Of a stretch of DNA of 40,024 nt, positions 15,272 to 26,878 are shown piece by piece. Within the stretch, counting starts at the first letter, position 1, and each line of letters opens with the position of its first letter. The notes below the pieces were generated by a model. It was not told where the DNA came from, did not search any database, and saw only the letters and a list, made by a program, of their open reading frames with translations. The translations under genes and the position numbers were made by a program. The stretch is from Candidatus Methylomirabilis oxygeniifera (GTDB lineage: Bacteria; Methylomirabilota; Methylomirabilia; Methylomirabilales; Methylomirabilaceae): assembly GCA_016190285.1 (NCBI GenBank), contig JACPQW010000039.1, positions 1 to 40,024 on the forward strand. The letters are read 5' to 3'.

Positions 15272-15993
15272 TGAACCCGTCTGCGTGCAGCGCACAGGCA
15301 GGCAAGCCTGCCGTGGTCCTGTTGAGCGGCGGGATCGACTCCGCAACGGCGGCCGCGTTGGCAAAGGCCAAGGGGTATCAGCTTCATGCCCTGACCTGTC
15401 GCTACGGCCAGCGTCACGCGCGCGAGGTGGAAAGCGCGAAGCGGATCGCAGTGGCCCTCGGCGCGTCGCAGCACCTGATCCTTGAACTTGATCTTCGCCG
15501 GATCGGAGGTTCGGCGCTGACTGCTGAAATCCCGGTGCCGAAGGGTCGCGAGATGAAAGAGATCGGCTCCGGTATCCCCATTACATACGTTCCCGCCCGC
15601 AATACCATCTTTCTCTCCTATGCGCTGGCCTGGGCCGAGGTGATCGGTTCGGAAGATATCGTGCTCGGGGTGAACGCCATCGACTACAGCGGGTATCCGG
15701 ATTGTCGGCCTGAATATATCGCGGCCTTCGAGCAGATGGCGAATCTGGCGACCCGCGCCGGCGCTGAAGGCAGATCCGCGCTCACCATTTACACTCCGCT
15801 GATCCACCTGTCCAAGGCCGAGATCATACGCCAGGGCGCTGCCCTTGGGATCGATTTTCGGCTTACCTGGAGCTGTTACGACCCGACCCCGGATGGACGG
15901 CCCTGCCGCGCCTGCGACAGTTGTATGCTAAGGGAGAAAGGCTTCGCCGAAGCCGGCATCCCCGACCCCGGCCTTGGAGCGGCGAAGGGCTAG
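15271..15993 (+). CDS. queC: 7-cyano-7-deazaguanine synthase (QueC)
   Basis: A 240-aa ATP-dependent synthase. The PP-loop motif SGGIDS is at about residues 19-24. [19 protein letters not shown] and [16 protein letters not shown] follow, and the C-terminal zinc-binding cysteines are in [19 protein letters not shown]. It converts 7-carboxy-7-deazaguanine to preQ0 using ammonia and ATP. GTG 15271 in a TAGTG overlap with queE is preferred. The frame runs back to GTG 15244, inside queE. A decayed copy of its 3' half lies at 16629-17020. Confidence 0.95.
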
Positions 15994-16035
15994 GATGAGC
16001 CGGACACACGTGTGACCCATGAAGGAGGAACGACC

Positions 16036-16548
16036 ATGAGCGACGATGTGAACGCCGCAGGTAAACACGGTATGACAGCCTTGATGAGAGCGGCTCAGGA
16101 CGGCTCTCCCAAGGCCGTGCAGGCGCTGATTGCGGCGGGCGCGAATGTGAACGCCAGAGATGAATATGGCTGGACGGCCTTGATGAGAGCGTCTCTAAGA
16201 GGCCATCTCGAGGTCGTACAAGCGCTGATTGCGGCGGGCGCGTGGGTACACGTCAAATCCGACGCGGGCTGGACGGCCTTGATGAGAGCGTCCCTGGCCG
16301 GCCATCTCGAGGTCGTACAAGCGCTGCTTGCGCAGGGCGTGGATGTGAACGCCACGCAGGATAATGGCGCAACGGCCTTGCTGTGGGCGTCTCAGGAAGG
16401 CCATTGCGAGGTCGTACAAGCGCTGCTCGCGGCGGGCGCGGATGTGCACGCCAAAACCAACAATGGCATCACGGCCTTGAAGATCGCGTTTAATAGGAGC
16501 GAGAACGAGGTCGTACGGCTCCTCAAGGAAGCCGGGGCAACGGAATAG
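16036..16548 (+). CDS. Ankyrin-repeat protein
   Basis: A 170-aa protein made almost wholly of five ankyrin repeats of 33 residues. Each has the pattern [24 protein letters not shown] (for example '[20 protein letters not shown]'). ATG 16036 has a strong ribosome site (GAAGGAGGAACGACC). No signal peptide is seen, so a cytoplasmic protein-protein interaction role is inferred; the partner is unknown. The repeats are also highly similar at DNA level, so the copy number could vary by recombination. The gene sits between intact queC and a degenerate partial queC copy, suggesting it arrived with a rearrangement of this locus. Confidence 0.85.
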
Positions 16549-16577
16549 CCCCCAAGAAAGATTGCCAATATCCCACG

Positions 16578-16617
16578 CAAGGGCTTACGACAACGCGTCG
16601 TAGGCCCTTGTTGTCTG
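16578..16617 (+). terminator. Hairpin downstream of the ankyrin gene
   Basis: CAAGGGCTTACGAC (16578-16591) pairs with GTCGTAGGCCCTTG (16597-16610), 14 bp with one G-U pair and a 5-base loop. The following TTGTCTGT is only a weak U tract, so termination strength is uncertain. Confidence 0.5.
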
Positions 16618-16628
16618 TGCTAACAGAC

Positions 16629-17020
16629 CGCAACACCATCTTTCTCTCCTGTGCGCTGGCCTGGGCGGAGGTGATCGATTCGGAAGATATCGTGCTCGGG
16701 GTGAACGCCATCGACTACAGCGGGTATCCCGATTGTCGTCCTGAGTATATTGCGGCCTTCGAGCACATGGCGAATCTGGCGACGCGGGCCAGCGTAGAAG
16801 ACAGATCCACACTCACCATTCACATTCCGCTGATCCCCACTTGTCCAAGGCCGAGATCATCCGGCAAGGCGCTGCCCTTGGGGTCGATTTCCATCTCACC
16901 TGGAGCTGCTACGACCCAACCCCGGACGGACGGCCCTGTCGCGCCTGCGACAGTTGCATGCTGAGGAAGAAAGGCTTTGGCGAAGCCGGCATCCCCGACC
17001 CCGGTCCTATTGCCTTGTAA
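16629..17020 (+). pseudogene. Frameshifted partial copy of queC
   Basis: From [20 protein letters not shown] onward, this copies the 3' half of queC (15598 to about 15975) at an offset of 1031 bases. I count 8 differences in the first ~123 bases aligned by eye. After the codons for IPLI the copy has two extra bases (CTGATCCCCACTTG versus CTGATCCACCTG), which shifts the frame. The queC C-terminus, including the cysteine-rich PCRACDSC segment, then continues in the new frame to TAA 17018-17020 with a different last few residues. It lacks the PP-loop and start, so it cannot be functional. The divergence suggests an old duplication or recombination with a related queC. Confidence 0.9.
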
Positions 17021-19403: not shown

Positions 19404-19739
19404 GATAAGGAAATATAGCGACTCTCGCTAGGCGTCAAGCACTATACGGGGATGTCACTCTGGGCAGCACGCTGTAGATTACCACCACGAATCTGCACTA
19501 TCCATCCCACAATTAGGGCTACCGTGGATAGACGGGCTGTGAGCGATGAAAAAGCAATGATGGGGGTAAGCGGAAATTGGTGACCCGTCGCGGACTCGAA
19601 TCAAGTATTTGGCACTCCAGAACCTCGATTTGACCATCCCCTTCTCAGGAAGGGTGGCGGTCTGATGGAGCAATTTCGCCTTAATGCAGTAAGGTCAGAC
19701 GCTCGCCTATTCTAGCGCAGTGCGTTACTTGGTTTATTG
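19404..19739. other. Non-coding stretch containing a tRNA-end fragment
   Basis: No gene is supported. At 19578-19600 there is an imperfect copy (20 of 23 bases) of the tRNA-Lys 3' end. A short inverted repeat lies just after the toxin promoter region. The remainder shows no coding bias. Confidence 0.4.
19578..19600 (-). repeat. Degenerate tRNA-Lys 3'-end fragment (old att-like site)
   Basis: These 23 bases match the repeats at 20665 and 26803 except for three adjacent positions, and with 20665 the match continues into TCA. The repeat corresponds to the T-stem, acceptor end and CCA of tRNA-Lys. It probably marks an earlier insertion into the same tRNA. Confidence 0.6.
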
Positions 19740-20156
19740 TCAGTTCATCAGCATGCGCTGCGACTGCAGCCGAGCACTGGGACCTGCCAGTCTTCTCTGT
19801 GCATGTGCATGCGATTGTTTCCGGCTCGCCGATTTGGAGTCCGGTTCGTCTTCGGCGATACCGGACAGAGCGACCGGTGGGCGATCAGGGAATTCCGCGA
19901 CAAGAGATAGCGTTCCGCCCATCGCTTCAACGGTTTTCCGCAAGGTAGAAATCATCAGATCGGTACGTTTCTCGATCTTAGAAATGCCGTCCTGCCCGAT
20001 GCCAAGCTTCTTAGCCATGCGGACCTGCGTGAGCTTGCGTGCGCGCCGGAGTTCCTGTAACGTCAACTCCTCCGCGATGAGCTGGGCCGCGCGGGCTGCG
20101 ATCTTCTTGCGACGGGTCGGGCTTAGTTCCTTCCTTATGCGTTCGAGATGTGTCAC
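19740..20156 (-). CDS. XRE-family antitoxin (HigA2-like)
   Basis: A 138-aa protein. Residues about 30-85 form an XRE helix-turn-helix (LQELRRARKLTQVRMAKKLG, IGQDGISKIEKRTDLMISTL), followed by VEAMGGTLSLVAEFPDRPPV as in antitoxins paired with Gp49/HigB-like toxins. It starts at GTG 20156, three bases after the end of the toxin frame. The tail after SGIAEDEP is longer than I expect, basic and low-complexity, and may be a read-through extension. It should bind the module's promoter and neutralise the upstream toxin. Confidence 0.8.
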   Translation of the reverse strand: MTHLERIRKELSPTRRKKIAARAAQLIAEELTLQELRRARKLTQVRMAKKLGIGQDGISKIEKRTDLMISTLRKTVEAMGGTLSLVAEFPDRPPVALSGIAEDEPDSKSASRKQSHAHAQRRLAGPSARLQSQRMLMN

Positions 20157-20159
20157 GGC

Positions 20160-20549
20160 TTACCCCCTTTCCTTTTTCTTCTGCCTTTTGAGTGTAGCCA
20201 GATGTGCATCAAAACGCGCATCGGCCTTGTCGATCAGTTAACGGTAGAACCGCTTGTCACTCACGCGGGACTTATCTCCGGCTGCCAGAATAATAGCCTT
20301 GCGGTATGGATCGAACGCAAATGCCACACGCCAGATACCATTAGCGGCATCGAACCGCAATTCCTTCATATGTGCATGACGTGAACCCTTCAGGGTGTCT
20401 GCATGGGGCCGCCCGAGCTGCGGGCCGAACTGTTCAAGCAGTTCGATGTGGGCCAGTAGTTCGTCCTGCACGTCCTTATGCAGATCGCGGTACTCGGGGG
20501 CGAAATCGTCGTGGAGATCAGCTTCCCACCTCACGTATGCAGTATGCAC
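20160..20549 (-). pseudogene. Gp49/HigB-like RelE-superfamily toxin with premature stop
   Basis: The frame encodes DVQDELLAHIELLEQFGPQL, GRPHADTLKGSRHAHMKELR and FDAANGIWRVAFAFDPYRKA, then GDKSRVSDKRFYR, all typical of phage Gp49-like toxins. A TAA at 20238-20240 stops it at 103 aa. The natural C-terminal continuation LIDKADARFDAHLATLKRQK is still encoded in the same frame, ending with TAA at 20160. The nonsense codon therefore removes about 23 residues. The core fold may survive, so residual activity is possible. Order and spacing with the XRE gene are those of an intact module. Start codon GTG 20549 or GTG 20534. Confidence 0.75.
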
Positions 20550-20570
20550 TATAATAACTATTTCGTCAAG

Positions 20571-20643
20571 TCCGCGTACGGCACTATCGTCATCGGCGTG
20601 AAGGACAAAACGAAAGAGGTGATCGGCATCGCTGGTCGCGCAG
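20571..20643 (+). pseudogene. Fragment of an AlbA_2/Schlafen-type ATPase domain
   Basis: A short plus-strand stretch reads FVKSAYGTIVIGVKDKTKEV followed by IGIA, matching the conserved strand pair of the AlbA_2 (divergent AAA_4) domain found in mobile-element regulators. No start or remainder is present. It lies just before the att repeat at 20665 and is probably a remnant of lost cargo. Confidence 0.4.
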
Positions 20644-20664
20644 GGCCTCGGCGACAGGCATGTA

Positions 20665-20687
20665 TGGTGACCCGTTCGGGACTCGAA
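20665..20687 (-). repeat. att site, integrase-proximal copy
   Basis: A 23-base sequence identical to the 3' end of tRNA-Lys at 26803-26825. It lies 11 bases beyond the integrase stop codon. The two copies are direct repeats bounding a 6.1-kb segment, as produced by site-specific integration into a tRNA gene. Confidence 0.88.
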
Positions 20688-20698
20688 TCACCCCCCTC

Positions 20699-21793
20699 TT
20701 AGAAACCAATAGATTCAAGGAGTTGCGTGACGGCCATTTTCTCAGTGCTACTCTGGGTGCTACTTCCATCGCCAGTTTCGGGGTCAGCCAGCCGTTCGAC
20801 CGCCGTTCGAAGGTGCGCGTCTTCGACCTTGAGATACCGCCGGGTGGTCCGGAGGTCCCGATGTCGGGCCAGGGCCATCAGGGTCGTCGCGCTCACATGG
20901 GGGGCCAGTCTCGATATGAATGTATCTCGCAAGCAGTGAAACGTCACGCCTTCCAAGCCTGCTCGCTTCGCATACTCTACGAAACGGGTCGATACTCCCT
21001 CGGGAATGTCCGGAAACACCAGGGGGCCGGTTCGCTCCAGAGAGGTCAGCAGCCGTCGGGCCGTCTGGTTTAATGGCAGCACTTCACGCTTGCCGCTCTT
21101 GGGCCGGGTGACGGTCAGGGTCCCTTGCTCCAAGTCGGTATCCTTCCAGGTTTGCGCCCTCAGCTCGCCCAACCGAAGACCGGTATGGATCGCAAACCGC
21201 GTGAAGGCATGGTAGCGCGTCGGAAGCACACTCAACAGCCGTGCCTCGTCATCCGCGCTCAACGGTCGGGGGTGTTCGTCCGGCTCTTTGAGAGGGTCCG
21301 TATCGGCCAGGGGGTTCAGGGTAGCCAGCTTCCAGGTCCTCGCCTTCGTGAACAGGTGCCCGAGAACGGTACGCTCTCGATTGATCGTGGCCGGGGCCGC
21401 ACCCTCACCCTTCCGGCGTTCGATGTAGCCCTCCAGCGCCTCACTGTCGATGTCGGTCAACGGCTTCGGGCCGAACGCCGTCACCAAGTGCTTCATGGCG
21501 CATTGCCGGAACACCACAGACCGCGGCCGCTCACGCTCCGCCCATGCCAGGTACCGGCTCGCGACATCTTGGAACAGGACCGGCTTCTCCGCCTCTCGCT
21601 GAGCCTTGGCCTCGGTCAAGCAGAATCCTTCGAGCTTGACTTGAAGCTTGCGCTTCTGGTAGTAGTCGCGGGCCAGTCCCTTCGCCGTGCCGATCTTTTC
21701 CCGGTGCCGATGCCCATACGGGCACACCCAGAGAATCCACCAGACGCCCTCACGTCGGAACAACCCTCGATCTACGCCACCGTTACGCGCCAT
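20699..21793 (-). CDS. Tyrosine recombinase / integrase
   Basis: A 364-aa phage-type integrase. The N-terminal part has a short CPYGHRH motif and an Arg/Lys-rich arm-binding region, then a SAM-like core-binding domain (about 72-165) and the catalytic domain. Catalytic residues are Arg207 (TGLRLGEL), Lys235, His286 and Arg289 (FHCLRDT), His311 (LARHRD) and the nucleophile Tyr320 (TTRRYLK). It should integrate and, with a directionality factor, excise the element at tRNA-Lys. It is the last gene of the minus-strand operon, with GGAGAG just before ATG 21793, 13 bases after the RHH gene. Its 3' end contains candidate arm-type repeats. Confidence 0.95.
   Translation of the reverse strand: MARNGGVDRGLFRREGVWWILWVCPYGHRHREKIGTAKGLARDYYQKRKLQVKLEGFCLTEAKAQREAEKPVLFQDVASRYLAWAERERPRSVVFRQCAMKHLVTAFGPKPLTDIDSEALEGYIERRKGEGAAPATINRERTVLGHLFTKARTWKLATLNPLADTDPLKEPDEHPRPLSADDEARLLSVLPTRYHAFTRFAIHTGLRLGELRAQTWKDTDLEQGTLTVTRPKSGKREVLPLNQTARRLLTSLERTGPLVFPDIPEGVSTRFVEYAKRAGLEGVTFHCLRDTFISRLAPHVSATTLMALARHRDLRTTRRYLKVEDAHLRTAVERLADPETGDGSSTQSSTEKMAVTQLLESIGF
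20743..20767. repeat. Candidate arm-type integrase sites, left end
   Basis: Two direct copies of GTGCTACT start at 20745 and 20757, 12 bases apart, inside the 3' end of the integrase gene. A 25-base match (22 identical) occurs at 26669-26693 near the other end of the element in the same orientation. Confidence 0.45.
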
Positions 21794-21806
21794 AGCCTCT
21801 CCGTCG

Positions 21807-21986
21807 TTACCGCTTACTTGGGGGGTTCAGGTAGGCCGTCAACGCCTCGATAATAATCGCTCGCAGACTGCTTCGGGTCTCAATCGCTCGATGCTGGCAA
21901 GCCTTCCAGAGGTCTTCAGGGAGGGTCAGACTCGTTCTCACCATTGCGGGCTCCTCTGTGTTGGGTTTCTGCTTCGATGTCTTCAT
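21807..21986 (-). CDS. Ribbon-helix-helix regulator (59 aa)
   Basis: A small gene upstream of the integrase. The protein contains MVRTSLTLPEDLWKACQHRA and SLRAIIIEALTAYL, a clear ribbon-helix-helix (Arc/CopG-like) fold: one beta-strand then two helices, with RTSLTL forming the DNA-contacting strand. It starts at ATG 21986, 9 bases after the preceding gene, and stops at TAA 21807, 13 bases before the integrase start. It probably controls the integrase or the operon promoter, or acts in excision. A second ATG 14 codons in could be the true start. Confidence 0.8.
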   Translation of the reverse strand: MKTSKQKPNTEEPAMVRTSLTLPEDLWKACQHRAIETRSSLRAIIIEALTAYLNPPSKR

Positions 21987-21995
21987 GCTTGTATG

Positions 21996-22400
21996 CTATA
22001 GCGTATCAGGTACGCTGTCAAGAGGAAAATCGGGGGGTGACACGTTGCTTCCTTCTCCCTCATCCTCGGGTACTCCAACTCTTGCCACGATCTTCTGTTT
22101 GAATCGGTCATACTGCCTGGTCTTCGGTCGGCTCTGTCTTCGCTTTTCCTCAAGCTCCCACTTGTGCCGTACCCATTCATCAATCAGGGTGGGGGTCGTG
22201 GCGAGACCGTGCCCAAGGTGTGCACACCGGAGCGGGTTTTCAACGTCCAGGCGCCATCTGTAGAGCGTTCGGGGCGATACCCCCAGCGCCGCACAGATCG
22301 TTTTCGCGCCGGTGAGTACATACCGCCCCTTGAAGGCGAGCGCCGCCTCAATCTTCGCCTCGATCCGTGCCAAGTGCTCCCGTATCGGATCGTCATCCAT
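21996..22400 (-). CDS. HTH DNA-binding protein of the element
   Basis: A 134-aa protein. Residues about 28-55 read VLTGAKTICAALGVSPRTLY followed by RWRL, a MerR/terminase-small-subunit-like helix-turn-helix. A WELEEKRR helix and a disordered acidic, proline-rich tail follow. Its start overlaps the end of the coiled-coil gene by 8 bases, so the genes are coupled. It may be a regulator or an origin-binding protein; I cannot distinguish these. Confidence 0.65.
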   Translation of the reverse strand: MDDDPIREHLARIEAKIEAALAFKGRYVLTGAKTICAALGVSPRTLYRWRLDVENPLRCAHLGHGLATTPTLIDEWVRHKWELEEKRRQSRPKTRQYDRFKQKIVARVGVPEDEGEGSNVSPPDFPLDSVPDTL

Positions 22401-23082
22401 GTCGCTCGCCCTCCATTTCGATGCTGACGGCGAAATTGTGCGTCGCCGGTAGCTCCGGGTCGAAACGTACTCGCCTGGGTCGGATCGTCAGCCCGAAGCG
22501 CTCCTGTAGGGTGCTATGCCAGAGACTTAACTCCGCCGCGTGCACTCGAACGGTCGTGTACCGGGTCAGCATCTCTTCGACTTCCTTCTGAAGGGTGCGC
22601 TGCTCCTGCTTGAAGAGCACATCCGCATAGCGCTCGATCTCGGCTTCCACGATGGGCCGTACCCGTTCCCAATCCCTCTCAGCCGTCCTCAGCCCGTCAT
22701 CAATCCGTACAAGTGCTTCCCGGTAGGTCTCCGCTTCAATTTTGCGGATATGGTACCGTGCACGGTCTCGGTCATAGTCCAGGCTCTCAAGCTCGCCCGC
22801 TGTCAGCTTGGCGTGCAACGCCTCACGTTCGCGTTCGAGTGCGGCTATCGTGCTTGTCCAACCGTCCCGCACGCTCCGGGCCTCGGTGAAACTCCGGTGC
22901 AGATCCGCAAGCCAGGGGAAGACCGCCTCTCTGAAATCCTTTGGGTCGTAATCAACCGGCCAGGGTCGGGCCAAGCCTCGCAACCGCGCTTGCACGATGG
23001 ACACGGGTCCCGATTGTCTTGTCAGCTCATCGCTCAGGTCCGCTTGCCGTTGTCTCAATCGTTCACTCAGATTGTCTCGCAT
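22393..23082 (-). CDS. Coiled-coil protein of unknown function
   Basis: A 229-aa, charged protein with long helical heptad-like segments (for example 'SVRDGWTSTIAALEREREAL', 'RIDDGLRTAERDWERVRPIV' and a further helix to about residue 170). A C-terminal beta-rich tail ends in PELPATHNFAVSIEMEGERH. I recognise no family. It has a good ribosome site (GGAGGGGATGAGAAG) and lies in the middle of the element operon, so it probably serves the element, for example in replication or interaction with a host factor. Confidence 0.65.
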   Translation of the reverse strand: MRDNLSERLRQRQADLSDELTRQSGPVSIVQARLRGLARPWPVDYDPKDFREAVFPWLADLHRSFTEARSVRDGWTSTIAALEREREALHAKLTAGELESLDYDRDRARYHIRKIEAETYREALVRIDDGLRTAERDWERVRPIVEAEIERYADVLFKQEQRTLQKEVEEMLTRYTTVRVHAAELSLWHSTLQERFGLTIRPRRVRFDPELPATHNFAVSIEMEGERHG

Positions 23083-23086
23083 CTTC

Positions 23087-23470
23087 TCATCCCCTCCCGC
23101 TCAGATGCAGTTCGTCTTTCCCGCAGAATGGACACCGGGCTTTCTCCTGATACCAGCGCTTCGCCGCCTCTTCGAGCGTTCGCCAGGCTGTGTCTGCTCC
23201 GACGTGCTGCTCCAGATGGTCGATCTCTCGATGAAGCGCCTTGAAGGTCTCCAGAGGGTCGGTCTCGGGTTTGCTCCAGTATTTCCGGTACAGGTCGGCC
23301 AGGGTACGGCCAGGTTGCAGAAGTCGCAGGAGGTCTTCCTTGTGCTGCACGATCTTCGCCTTGAGTTCCGGCGTCACCTTGTCTCTCGGACCGAAGGCCA
23401 GTTTATCGCCTCTCGGGTGGAGCGTTACCCCTTGGTTCTGTAGCTCGCTGAGTAGGGCCGTCGGAGTCAT
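23087..23470 (-). CDS. TubC-docking-like protein with C-terminal Cys pair
   Basis: A 127-aa protein. The first ~55 residues (MTPTALLSELQNQGVTLHPR, then LKAKIVQHKEDLLRLL) have the pattern of the TubC N-terminal docking domain, a small fold also common in mobile-element proteins. A helical middle follows, and a single CPFCGK motif near the end could be half of a zinc site. It starts three bases after the primase stop codon (GAGGAGGTG ribosome site). Function unknown; a protein-protein adaptor is a guess. Confidence 0.6.
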   Translation of the reverse strand: MTPTALLSELQNQGVTLHPRGDKLAFGPRDKVTPELKAKIVQHKEDLLRLLQPGRTLADLYRKYWSKPETDPLETFKALHREIDHLEQHVGADTAWRTLEEAAKRWYQEKARCPFCGKDELHLSGRG

Positions 23471-23473
23471 CCG

Positions 23474-25501
23474 TCACACCTCCTCAAAGAGGGTTTCAGA
23501 AGGGGAAATACTGCGTCCCAAGATTTCCACCGGGTCCCCGTTTTTATCAAAAGCATGGGAACGAGAATACACTGAATCGTTTTCGCTACTTACGCCGTTT
23601 TCGGATGCTTGTTTTGCTTGTTCCCGCATATATATGGGAACAAGGGAACAAGAATCTGAAACCGCATAGCGATAGGGGTCGCCCTTACCCCCCTTGCCGG
23701 ACCTGGAAAGCTTCCCCGCCGCTACCAATTGCCGGAGTGCTCGGCGCTTGACTGCGAGCCGCGCTTCCACCGCGTCATTAATCTCCGGCTCGGTCACCGG
23801 CTCCCGCTGGGTCCTCAGAAACTCCAGAATCTTGTCAGCCACTTCTTGCCCCTCCACCTCTTGCCGGGACGGGCCAGCCGACACCCTCCGCGTGTCAGGG
23901 TCCAGGGTGAGCGTCACTTCTTCGAGGTCTTCGCCGTATCGCTGAATACTTCGCAACGTTCGATACTGGTCTCTCCGGGTCAGAAGCAACGCTGTGTCAA
24001 CGCTCCCGAAGATCGCCGTACTGCCAAGAATGCCGTCACCGTCGCCGCTCCCCTTCTTACTCGAATGATGCACAAGCAGCACATGGGCTCCCGTTTGCCG
24101 GGCCAGGGTGAGCAGGGGCTCCAGGGCCGCCGTCACCTGAGTGTAATCGTTCCCATCTTTCACGCGCACAAACCGGAAGAGGGGGTCAACCACAATCAAG
24201 ACCGGCTGATGAGCCTCCGCCGCCTTGCGAAGCTGGGCCAGGCCATCCGCCGGAGATGGTTCCATGAAGAGATACAGGTGATCCTCCCCCGTCGCGCCCA
24301 TCGCCTCGAAGTGCCGCCGGAGTTCCGCCCGCTTTTCCTCCAGCGCCAGATAGAAGACTGTCCCTTGGCTAGTCTGACACCCCAGCCAGGACTCGCCTTG
24401 AGCCACCGCCAACGCCAAGCATCGCGCCAGGGTGCTCTTCCCCACCTTGGGCTTGGCCGCCAGGATGGACAGGCCGCCGCTTGGCAAACGCTCCTCCACC
24501 AACCAGGACACGACTTCCTCGGGCTCCGCCAACAAGTCACCCAACCGCGTCAAGGGAAGGCCGCCGCTCTCCTGGGTGTGGGCCGACTCTTGCCGATCCG
24601 CCTTCCCGTTCGCATGATGGTTTCCCACGTAAAACTCCGTCCGGCCACTCAGGGCCTTGGTAACCACAGCTTCGAGATAGGTCTGTCCGTCGCCGTAGTG
24701 TCGTTTATCCCACTTCTCCCGCGCAAGGCCGGAGCTTCGCATCAGGGTTTCCAATTTCATCGCATCGGGGCCGGTCCAGAAGGCGAGCAGAGAGGCTAAC
24801 GCCATGTCCGCCTCACTTGCGGAGGGGTAATCAGTCGTGTCGCCATTCCACAGCCGCTGGAGCTTGTCGCCGTTCGCTGCGTCAAACGCCCGCGCCAGCA
24901 GCTTATCGTCCGTCGCGTCCAGGCCGCTGCCGTTCGTATTAGATTTCGTGTCACGCTGCTGAGAGAAGTAGGTGGCGAGCAACCAGTCTACAGCTTCTTG
25001 CCGCTCCTCGATCATCGAGGGATATGCTGACATGCACTTACCGGTGATGGTGAAGTACCGCCACCGGTCATAGACCTCAATGGGTCCCTTTTTCCGGCCT
25101 CCGCTTGGGAGGGTAGCCTTCATGATGAGATGTTGACCTTGGCCGCTTGGGGACAGCTCGCAATAGCTGTCGAATCGCCTCAAGATGGTCTGTCGGTCCT
25201 CCTCTAGTAATTCCTTGTCCAGGTCAATCCCCGTATAGGGATCATCTTCCGCGAATACGTAGCCGACGCCATCGAAGCCGCCGCGCTCGTACAGCCTCCA
25301 CGCTGCTTCGAATGACAGCCAGGTCGCAGGCTCCGTGCTGCTCGCCTTGCGGCCCACCGCGTAGTACGGGACCTTGGTAGGCTTGGGTTCGCCCTCCCGA
25401 AGCTCAAGTCGCCATACCACCCACTGCGAGCGAGCCCTCAGCTCTCCGGGGATGGTGTCGCGCAATGGGGCTAGGATCGGAGCTGTCGCCGTCCCGCTCA
25501 T
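23474..25501 (-). CDS. Primase-polymerase / RepA-type helicase fusion
   Basis: A 675-aa replication protein. Residues about 15-165 look like an archaeo-eukaryotic primase/NrS-1-polymerase-type domain: WVVWRLE, metal-binding GIDLD (Asp93, Asp95), LSPSGQGQHL (His124) and YDRWRYFTITG. A linker helical domain (about 205-285; DYPSASEADMALASLLAFWT, GLAREKWDKRHYGDGQTYLE) follows. The AAA_25/RepA-like ATPase domain has Walker A AAKPKVGKST (Lys355) and Walker B VLIVVDP (Asp439). The C-terminus has a winged-helix-like region and a short disordered tail. It should prime and unwind DNA for autonomous replication of the excised element. Its ATG overlaps the stop of the AlpA-like gene (ATGA). Confidence 0.85.
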   Translation of the reverse strand: MSGTATAPILAPLRDTIPGELRARSQWVVWRLELREGEPKPTKVPYYAVGRKASSTEPATWLSFEAAWRLYERGGFDGVGYVFAEDDPYTGIDLDKELLEEDRQTILRRFDSYCELSPSGQGQHLIMKATLPSGGRKKGPIEVYDRWRYFTITGKCMSAYPSMIEERQEAVDWLLATYFSQQRDTKSNTNGSGLDATDDKLLARAFDAANGDKLQRLWNGDTTDYPSASEADMALASLLAFWTGPDAMKLETLMRSSGLAREKWDKRHYGDGQTYLEAVVTKALSGRTEFYVGNHHANGKADRQESAHTQESGGLPLTRLGDLLAEPEEVVSWLVEERLPSGGLSILAAKPKVGKSTLARCLALAVAQGESWLGCQTSQGTVFYLALEEKRAELRRHFEAMGATGEDHLYLFMEPSPADGLAQLRKAAEAHQPVLIVVDPLFRFVRVKDGNDYTQVTAALEPLLTLARQTGAHVLLVHHSSKKGSGDGDGILGSTAIFGSVDTALLLTRRDQYRTLRSIQRYGEDLEEVTLTLDPDTRRVSAGPSRQEVEGQEVADKILEFLRTQREPVTEPEINDAVEARLAVKRRALRQLVAAGKLSRSGKGGKGDPYRYAVSDSCSLVPIYMREQAKQASENGVSSENDSVYSRSHAFDKNGDPVEILGRSISPSETLFEEV

Positions 25502-25704
25502 CGCCGCCTCTCGCCGGGAAACCCTTCGCGCCCGCGTTCCAACAGCCGGAGCAGATCCGATTCGAGGAACACGATCCTTCCGCCGATCCGCCGCGCCTGC
25601 AACCCGAGACGGATTCGAAACCGACGATCGCTCAACGAGCGGGGGGATACTGCCAACATTTCGCTTGCCTCTCCGACGCTTAAGGCTCTTTCACGCTCAC
25701 GCAT
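25498..25704 (-). CDS. AlpA/excisionase-like HTH protein
   Basis: A 68-aa protein, LSVGEASEMLAVSPRSLSDR followed by RFRIRLGLQARRIGGRIVFL, with the winged helix-turn-helix pattern of the AlpA/MerR-like excisionase family. It is probably the directionality factor for the integrase or a transcriptional activator. ATG 25704 has AAGGAGA upstream. It overlaps the primase start by four bases (ATGA). A palindrome lies 24-43 bases upstream of the start. Confidence 0.75.
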   Translation of the reverse strand: MRERERALSVGEASEMLAVSPRSLSDRRFRIRLGLQARRIGGRIVFLESDLLRLLERGREGFPGERRR

Positions 25705-25727
25705 ACGCCCTTCTCCTTACGCCGCCC

Positions 25728-25747
25728 GTCGCGCATCAGTGCGCGAC
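25728..25747. promoter_or_regulatory. Perfect palindrome upstream of the element operon
   Basis: GTCGCGCA (25728-25735) and TGCGCGAC (25740-25747) flank TCAG. It lies just before the ribosome site of the AlpA-like gene, so it could be the operator for one of the element's HTH or RHH proteins, or a hairpin in the mRNA leader. Confidence 0.4.
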
Positions 25748-25856
25748 ATTGTGCGTCCTAGCGTGTAAGGTAACGGGGCCATGGCGCTAGTGTAAATCAG
25801 TGACGTTCAGCGAGAGTTTGTGGGCTGTTTTTGCGCGAAGAGTTACGGTAAGAGTG

Positions 25857-26495
25857 TTACGGTTCGGGGGGGAAGAATTTCCGGTAGGTCGCCTCATACT
25901 CAGCAGGCCAGTCAACCTTGTGCAGGCGAACACGGAGAAGTTCTGCAGGATCGTCTTTCCCTCGGCTCGAACCGCTTTGAAGACGCAAGACAGAGGTACC
26001 TGTTGCGGTTTCGGCCAGGGCCAGCATCTCCTTATAGTGTGGCCGCCTCAGCCGCTCTCGAAGCTCCTGTTCGAGCACTTTAAGAATTACCGTCTCCTCA
26101 AGCGGGCCTCGCCATCCGCGCTTGCCATGAAACCCATGTGCCTTGAGAAAATTCCGCATGGCCGCATCGGATCGGCGAACCTGCCGAGACGCTTCTTGTG
26201 TGGCTCCCACAGTCTTCTTGAGCTTGCGGATCGAGCTTGTCGGGTTCTTCGGAAAGTAGGGCAACAAGCCAGCACAGGTACCTTCAAGCTGTATGAGTTT
26301 CTTCTTGAAGTCTTGGGCCAGTGCAGGGTACTGAGGCTTCGGAATACGCGCCTTCTTTGACTCAGGGGTCAGATACCACAGCAGGGCGATCACGTTGTCA
26401 GGATTGCCGCCTTTCTTGGTGTAGCGCGTGAAGAAGTCCTCGCACTTACAGAGTAGGCGAGCGTGAAACTCCAGGTAGGGGCGCGTTGTCGGCAT
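25857..26495 (-). CDS. Hypothetical cargo protein of the element
   Basis: A 212-aa, basic, largely helical protein (starts MPTTRPYLEFHARLLCKCED, with later helices such as 'EETVILKVLEQELRERLRRP'). No signal peptide or membrane segment is seen and I recognise no domain. A strong ribosome site (GGAGGAGCC) precedes ATG 26495. A structured leader lies upstream. It is separated from the replication operon by about 150 bases and is nearest to the tRNA end, where integrative elements often carry cargo. A defence, regulatory or excision role cannot be assigned from sequence. Confidence 0.6.
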   Translation of the reverse strand: MPTTRPYLEFHARLLCKCEDFFTRYTKKGGNPDNVIALLWYLTPESKKARIPKPQYPALAQDFKKKLIQLEGTCAGLLPYFPKNPTSSIRKLKKTVGATQEASRQVRRSDAAMRNFLKAHGFHGKRGWRGPLEETVILKVLEQELRERLRRPHYKEMLALAETATGTSVLRLQSGSSRGKDDPAELLRVRLHKVDWPAEYEATYRKFFPPEP

Positions 26496-26802
26496 GGCTC
26501 CTCCGTCGAGCGTCCGAAGAGGTCCCCGGTCAGGTCGGTCGGAAGCCGACTCTTCGGGCCGTCGCCCTAGACCGGGGAGAAAAATTGTATGTCAGTGTAG
26601 CGAATATATGAGGGGGGGTGGGGAAGCAATCCGAAGACCGTACGCCCCTCGCTTTTGCGCCTCAAATTCAGTGCTACTCCAGGTGCTACTCCCGCGTCTG
26701 AAATGGTCGTTTTCCGTCGTACTCTAGCATGGTTCGTGCCAAGCGTATAAGTGTACGTGAATACAGGATTGTTCAGCGTTTTTAGGCAGATAGGAAGAGG
26801 GG
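26496..26802. other. Element right end: structured leader and arm-type repeats
   Basis: Between the hypothetical gene and tRNA-Lys. CCCCGGTC (26524-26531) pairs with GACCGGGG (26570-26577), enclosing a smaller GTCGG/CCGAC hairpin; CGAAGA/TCTTCG nearby may form an alternative fold. On the minus strand this is the 5' leader of the hypothetical gene. The repeat at 26669-26693 lies between it and the tRNA. A 98-codon minus frame here overlaps the tRNA and is not credible. Confidence 0.45.
26669..26693. repeat. Candidate arm-type integrase sites, right end
   Basis: Two direct GTGCTACT copies start at 26671 and 26683, 12 bases apart, matching 22 of 25 bases of the pair at 20743-20767 in the same orientation. 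They lie about 110 bases inside the att core at 26803. Confidence 0.45.
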
Positions 26803-26825
26803 TGGTGACCCGTTCGGGACTCGAA
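26803..26825 (-). repeat. att site, tRNA-proximal copy (tRNA-Lys 3' end)
   Basis: The 23 bases covering the T-arm end, acceptor strand, discriminator and CCA of tRNA-Lys are repeated exactly at 20665-20687. The tRNA remains complete after integration, as expected. Confidence 0.85.
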
Positions 26826-26878
26826 CCCGAGACTCCCTGCTTAAAAGGCAGGAGCTCTGCCAACTGAGCTAACGGGTC
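26803..26878 (-). tRNA. tRNA-Lys (anticodon UUU)
   Basis: The minus strand forms a full cloverleaf. The acceptor GACCCGT pairs with ACGGGTC, the D-arm reads TAGCTCAGTTGGCAGAGC, and the anticodon stem-loop CCTGC-CTTTTAA-GCAGG has TTT at its centre. The T-arm CGGG-TTCGAGT-CCCG is followed by discriminator A and an encoded CCA. It serves as the integration target of the neighbouring element. Confidence 0.97.

Follow-up and report, generated by a model that had tools for sequence, protein, structure and literature searches.

A primase-helicase with a candidate C-terminal docking tail in a small tRNA-Lys integrative element of Candidatus Methylomirabilis oxygeniifera

The window considered here, a stretch of 40,024 nucleotides of Candidatus Methylomirabilis oxygeniifera DNA, contains a mobile element of 6138 bp (20665-26802) whose seven genes all lie on the minus strand and whose host site is a tRNA-Lys gene. 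One of these genes encodes a 675-aa primase-helicase. Sequence comparison leads us to the explanation that this is probably the replication protein of the integrative element and that its C-terminal tail probably docks onto a partner, encoded by the next gene, that carries a bHD domain. The features of the region, in which genes were called as simple open reading frames, are the following:

26803-26878, minus strand: tRNA-Lys(TTT) gene, whose 3′ end is the attachment site (ARAGORN, Rfam, direct repeat)
26803-26825: attL core TGGTGACCCGTTCGGGACTCGAA, within the 3′ end of the tRNA-Lys(TTT) gene (direct repeat)
26511-26577, minus strand: int-alpA RNA (RF02996; Rfam 50.2 bits against a gathering score of 35.8), att-proximal and upstream of the first element gene
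25857-26495, minus strand: 212-aa protein with no assigned function
25498-25704, minus strand: HTH_17 protein, excisionase/AlpA-like (Pfam HTH_17, 5.7e-7; phrog_66)
23474-25501, minus strand: 675-aa primase-helicase, with its ATG at 25501 and its stop at 23474; the plus strand has stops there
23474-23500, minus strand: codons of SETLFEEV and the stop, the candidate docking peptide; GAGGAGGTG doubles as Shine-Dalgarno of the next gene
23087-23470, minus strand: 127-aa partner, with a TubC_N/bHD domain (residues 1-54), a helical part and a putative CPFC..H zinc motif
22393-23082, minus strand: 229-aa protein with no assigned function, kept in sister elements (68% in G033)
21996-22400, minus strand: 134-aa HTH protein (44% in G033)
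20699-21793, minus strand: tyrosine integrase (Pfam Phage_integrase, 9.5e-20; 63% in G034)
20665-20690, no strand: attR, with an exact copy of the 23-nt core of the tRNA-Lys 3′ end
19740-20549, minus strand: HTH antitoxin (19740-20156) and Gp49/RelE-like toxin (20238-20549), both flanked by the left-hand pair of att copies
19578-19603, no strand: third, diverged att copy, marking the outer limit of an earlier tandem insertion

In two relatives (G031 and G029), the tRNA-Lys gene lies directly beside the queC gene and the site is empty; compared with them, the window holds about 9.7 kb of extra DNA in the form of layered insertions. A small bounded element in a tRNA gene, together with an empty site in relatives, supports a history of integration. 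The left flank of the third att copy (19578) matches the tRNA-Lys flank of another species (G021), and the tRNA-proximal end of the window's element recurs in an element that G032 carries at the corresponding tRNA. Sister elements or their int-alpA RNAs are present in several species, and a decayed relative of the element lies near tRNA-Sec in the same genome. The preliminary description of this DNA had proposed a small element, and its small size, its borders, its insertion in a tRNA gene and the empty site in relatives agree with that proposal, which missed the conserved docking partner and the modular swapping described below. The 1.1-kb antitoxin/toxin block at 19578-20690, flanked by two att copies, resembles a tiny tandem element of its own, and a pair 89-91% identical to it adjoins an att copy in another species (G030, L068). 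To the left of this insertion hotspot, at 15597-17004, the queC 3′ region is partly duplicated and stretches of ankyrin-like repeats occur. A family of small tRNA-integrated elements is thereby described; mobile elements of what is probably the Methylomirabilis group seem to have been little studied.

Besides the partner, sister elements keep the HTH_17 protein and the int-alpA RNA, of which G019, a genome from another genus, has four copies. The RNA is absent from satellite P4 and from E. coli CP4-57, so it offers no direct link to those elements. A search across the order found no relatives of the 212-aa protein. Promoter and terminator scans of the element gave no excess over chance, and a scan for origin repeats gave weak short repeats only, located upstream of the HTH gene.

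The primase-helicase can be read in a clear domain order: an NrS-1-type AEP domain (about 16-180), a helix-bundle domain (HBD, 229-291), an AAA_25/RepA-like helicase domain (318-484) and the C-terminal tail SETLFEEV. Pfam matches the HBD (NrS1-1_pol-like_HBD, PF22763, 7e-22) and AAA_25 (6e-38), and the PHROG profile phrog_1829 ("DNA primase") matches residues 16-302 (1.5e-81). Among proteins of known structure, phmmer finds the DNA primase 7ola (3e-30) and NrS-1 (6k9a/6a9w, 1e-28 over 22-283) within residues 16-289, and RadA and RepA for the helicase part. An AlphaFold2 model built from 28 sequences reaches a pLDDT of about 90 over most of 16-180 and 200-290; Foldseek ranks the NrS-1 N300 structures first (6e-20), followed by RadA, DnaB and RepA (1nlf, TM to target 0.62). 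The reading frame at 23474-25501 thus proved real, on the minus strand, and both families to which the preliminary description had assigned it (AEP/NrS-1 and RepA/AAA_25) were recovered by profile, while the AEP fold that it placed at residues 15-165 is present in the model. The composition of an NrS-1-type AEP, a helix-bundle domain and a RecA-fold helicase domain of the RepA/RadA/DnaB kind is confirmed at the level of sequence and predicted structure.

The individual residues agree as well. The two aspartates of GIDLD (D93 and D95), proposed earlier as metal ligands of the AEP type, are invariant across the 28 aligned sequences; GQGQH, named with them, contains H124, and SEAD sits at the start of the HBD, the middle helical domain that had been anticipated. 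Residues S117-P118-S119, H124 and R148-Y149 align with S108-P109-S110, H115 and R145-Y146 of NrS-1, and R261, K263 and Y275 of the HBD, counterparts of R249, K251 and Y261, are nearly invariant. The SPS loop, the R/Y motif and the HBD residues matter in NrS-1 (PMC8718748). Because the residues for catalysis and de novo priming in NrS-1 are conserved here, primer-independent synthesis is a fair prediction. The predicted Walker A/B helicase is borne out by a Walker A motif (KPKVGKST), a Walker B motif (LIVVD) and an HH motif. The matches to NrS-1 stop at residue 283 and the C-terminal half is AAA_25, in place of the ring domain that ends NrS-1. An AAA_25-like helicase was found in 4 of 37 NrS-type proteins examined from viral contigs. 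Among plasmid records, the closest AEP+HBD relatives (H31-H60) are haloarchaeal, at ~38-46% identity, which suggests cross-domain transfer.

What this protein does for the element is plausibly priming and autonomous replication after excision, both being predictions. Among recognisable families it is the only replication gene of the seven, as had been claimed, yet several of the others lack an annotation, and its neighbour, the next gene, encodes a companion that is conserved. The epithet "self-contained" does not fit, as no replicative polymerase, SSB or ligase was recognised and host factors, possibly also a helper, would be needed. That the element belongs to the PICMI-type phage satellites, and would replicate only upon infection by a helper phage and be packaged by it, is quite possible, if short of an even chance; such a life style would fit both views of the tail discussed below. 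Its size, gene set and HTH_17 protein resemble those of PICMI115 (six genes, with int, alpA and prim; PMC10803314), and in the G028 sister element a gene for an XkdF-like phage serine protease (L033:12323-12724, minus strand; Pfam 1.8e-19) directly follows the partner gene and hints at a phage-satellite life style. However, the insertion is in tRNA-Lys and not beside fis, the primase is an NrS-1 AEP with AAA_25 and not a DUF3987/DUF5906 protein, and no helper phage or packaging signal was identified. The earlier view, by which the integrative element is plasmid-like and, once excised spontaneously, replicates on its own, strikes us as somewhat doubtful: the haloarchaeal plasmid proteins among its closest AEP+HBD sequences and the tandem att copies, which show repeated integration, speak for it, whereas no partition, mobilisation or origin feature was found.

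The two halves of the primase-helicase have been exchanged independently in sister elements while the next gene was retained. The G028 protein matches that of the window in its helicase half only (298-648, 55%), the N-terminal half being different. In the G031 and G032 elements, a PF09250 Prim-Pol with PriCT_1 is joined to another AAA_25, and in a second G032 element the Prim-Pol is followed by a DUF3631 helicase-like domain. In the tRNA-Lys element of G032, a transposase-like gene (L057:3990-5078, IS630-like by appearance) interrupts this DUF3631 domain. The G033 element combines a RepB-like primase with DUF3631, and the G034 element combines DUF3854 with DUF3631. Within a single genus, N-terminal modules of at least four types are thus combined with C-terminal modules of at least three types. 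Similar AEP-helicase architectures are known across bacteria (PMC5862659); what is new locally is that the module swaps are visible between sister elements.

The constant companion of these changing proteins is the 127-aa partner. All seven elements of the genus retain its gene, and the products, which show 33-59% identity to that of the window, have 25 invariant residues. Residues 1-54 match TubC_N (Pfam, 2.8e-12), and a profile of the seven partners matches the solved bHD domains of AerJ (4.8e-6), EpoB (6.5e-5), Kj12 and TubC. The remainder is helical, with an invariant CPFC and an invariant His forming a putative zinc site. A single-sequence model of the tail with the partner gives an alpha-beta-beta-alpha-alpha fold, and its top 11 Foldseek matches are all bHD domains, each weak in E-value (AerJ, TM 0.71 to target). 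In this read-through model, made without an alignment and with a tether of only two residues, the tail forms no strand and confidence is low; the model speaks for the bHD fold but lends no support to a contact with the tail. Pfam finds no condensation, carrier or other megasynthase domain on the 127-aa protein, which sets it outside the NRPS/PKS enzymes. In those, the final ~5 residues of the protein upstream are bound by the bHD domain, to which they add a strand (PMC6195595, PMC9113145). A Lys or Arg occupies the position of Kj12 R24 in six of the seven partners, an acid stands at position -2 in some tails only, and in some elements the pattern of the last five residues departs from the Kj12 salt-bridge rules. 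No relatives of the partner were found in IMG/VR, phage and plasmid records, and a search of openly accessible literature turned up TubC_N neither in mobile elements nor in replisomes. Another genus (G019, L201:8748-9182, minus strand) has a homologue of the zinc-motif portion that lacks TubC_N; its replication protein ends in ..GEEAKEP, and the motif is absent.

The replication proteins whose genes precede that of the partner have the C-termini LFEEV, DFEEV, EEVCVL (twice), EEVTVI, EELSL and AWETL, and a linked replication protein from another family of the same class ends in EEAEL. NRPS genes of the same phylum that lie upstream of TubC_N-NRPS genes end similarly, in REEIEL, VIEEF and REDIAF. 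With the tail pattern defined as E[DE], then 0-3 residues, then a final hydrophobic residue, it is found in 7 of 8 linked replication proteins versus 0 of 34 genes of this genus that are coupled by a Shine-Dalgarno (Fisher 3e-7, with rows that share ancestry; p ~2e-4 against this first control set when related junctions are collapsed to five lineages). It occurs in 1 of 370 genes within 400 kb of G024, in 0 of 35 NrS-type AEPs of viral contigs, and in none of the four replication proteins of the order that have no TubC_N neighbour (L037, L038, L201, L222). Exceptions to the pairing of tail and partner are L252 (LPLWDQP), L244 (EEGRE) and G049, in which TubC_N is not adjacent.

Since the first tails were already in view when the pattern was defined, the search of 400 genomes of Chloroflexota (the phylum of Oscillochloris) with PF18563 is a semi-independent test only. 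The matches comprise NRPS genes (with tails such as EREEIEL), many short TubC_N proteins and fusions of TubC_N with a 3′-5′ exonuclease and DNA_pol_A:

L256:10087-12288: TubC_N-exonuclease-family A DNA polymerase fusion
L257:9993-12287: TubC_N-exonuclease-family A DNA polymerase fusion
L236:1-1680: TubC_N-exonuclease-family A DNA polymerase fusion

Genes directly upstream of TubC_N include those of AAA_25, D5_N/DUF5906, DUF3631 and DUF927 proteins; other upstream genes gave no helicase match in the sequence portion examined. In two genomes, a Prim-Pol gene ending in EWEDIEL or EWEEFDL overlaps the gene of a TubC_N-exonuclease-DNA_pol_A fusion, and the G367 element repeats the layout of an integrase, an HTH_17 protein, a Toprim-DUF3631 protein ending in DEEVL and a TubC_N protein. 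By the original pattern 8 of 15 tails fit, and 10 of 15 if the final residue may also be W, Y or M, versus 0 of 25 local Shine-Dalgarno-coupled controls from one genome (Fisher 4e-6 for the wider pattern, the rows being not independent).

An acidic-hydrophobic C-terminus on the upstream protein, as in docking pairs, is thus distinguished from controls, in a comparison partly confounded by the Shine-Dalgarno. Indeed, at the junction GAG GAG GTG TGA CGG ATG, the GAG GAG that encodes the EE of the tail is a strong Shine-Dalgarno of the next gene, the EE of many linked tails is encoded in the same manner, and part of the motif may be translational in origin. One may go further and regard the element as ordinary, with a primase-helicase acting alone, a tail that is an in-frame Shine-Dalgarno and a TubC_N-like domain that binds something else. 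This we hold to be unlikely: the strength of the Shine-Dalgarno and the frequency of AEP-helicase fusions in tRNA-integrated elements (PMC5862659) are in keeping with it, but the coupled controls (0/34 and 0/25) make the Shine-Dalgarno alone look insufficient as a cause, the motif is missing in the four replication proteins of the order that have no TubC_N neighbour, and genuine NRPS partners carry matching tails. Although TubC_N is chiefly known from NRPS, it is highly improbable that domain and tail are a functionless remnant left by recombination with a cluster of NRPS genes, as the partner has been kept in seven elements, with its invariant residues, while neighbouring modules were replaced, and TubC_N accompanies replication genes and polymerases in another phylum.

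For the docking explanation, which we prefer, the following course can be proposed. The integrase and the HTH_17 protein would excise the element, after which the primase-helicase would unwind the circular form and make primers de novo, to be extended by the host polymerase, perhaps together with the AEP itself. The ..LFEEV end would act as a short linear motif (SLiM) adding a strand to the bHD domain of the partner, and the docked primase-helicase would carry the zinc-motif partner along, most likely as an accessory recruited at the primer or origin. In other elements, those of Chloroflexota, the cargo of this connector would be a DNA polymerase. As such a connector sits at the C-terminal end, the primase and helicase modules upstream could be exchanged without breaking the partnership. 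On balance, we lean towards a broader statement, in which the SLiM/bHD connector of NRPS/PKS would also serve the replication machines of mobile elements as a general connector: whatever its fold type, a primase-helicase would use a short terminal motif to recruit a bHD partner (a zinc-motif protein here, a DNA polymerase in Chloroflexota), and modules would swap while the partnership stays. If true, the docking code that has been investigated and engineered in the assembly lines of antibiotics would, in DNA replication, also couple primase-helicases to polymerases or accessory factors, which would explain the free exchange of primase and helicase domains in mobile elements.

Several known systems share parts of this arrangement. 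The NrS-1 phage primase-polymerase (NrSPol; PMC7102993, PMC8718748) has the same AEP fold, DxD, SPS loop, His, R-Y motif and helix-bundle residues, but carries a C-terminal ring domain where the window protein has an AAA_25/RepA-type helicase. With the helicases RSF1010 RepA and RadA it shares a RecA-like ATPase core with Walker A, Walker B and HH motifs, which is here fused behind a primase. The phrog_1829/7OLA-type primases and the fusions of AEP and helicase described by Kazlauskas et al. (2018; PMC5862659) likewise combine an AEP with exchangeable helicases in elements at tRNA genes; the PrimPol-PV1 families, however, have PriCT domains, in contrast to the NrS-1 HBD, AAA_25 and bHD partner found here. 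PICMI satellites (PMC10803314) also bring together int, an AlpA-like HTH protein and a primase in ~6 kb; gene set and size resemble theirs, whereas two of their defining traits, the fis site and the DUF3987/DUF5906 primase, are replaced here by tRNA-Lys and NrS-1 AEP + AAA_25, with no known helper. Finally, the SLiM-bHD pairs of NRPS/PKS (TubC, EpoB, Kj12, Bamb_5915 and AerJ; PMC6195595, PMC9113145) likewise consist of an N-terminal bHD domain downstream and an acidic-hydrophobic C-terminus upstream, encoded by adjacent coupled genes; unlike them, the pair of the tRNA-Lys element has no megasynthase domain on either side and joins replication enzymes instead.
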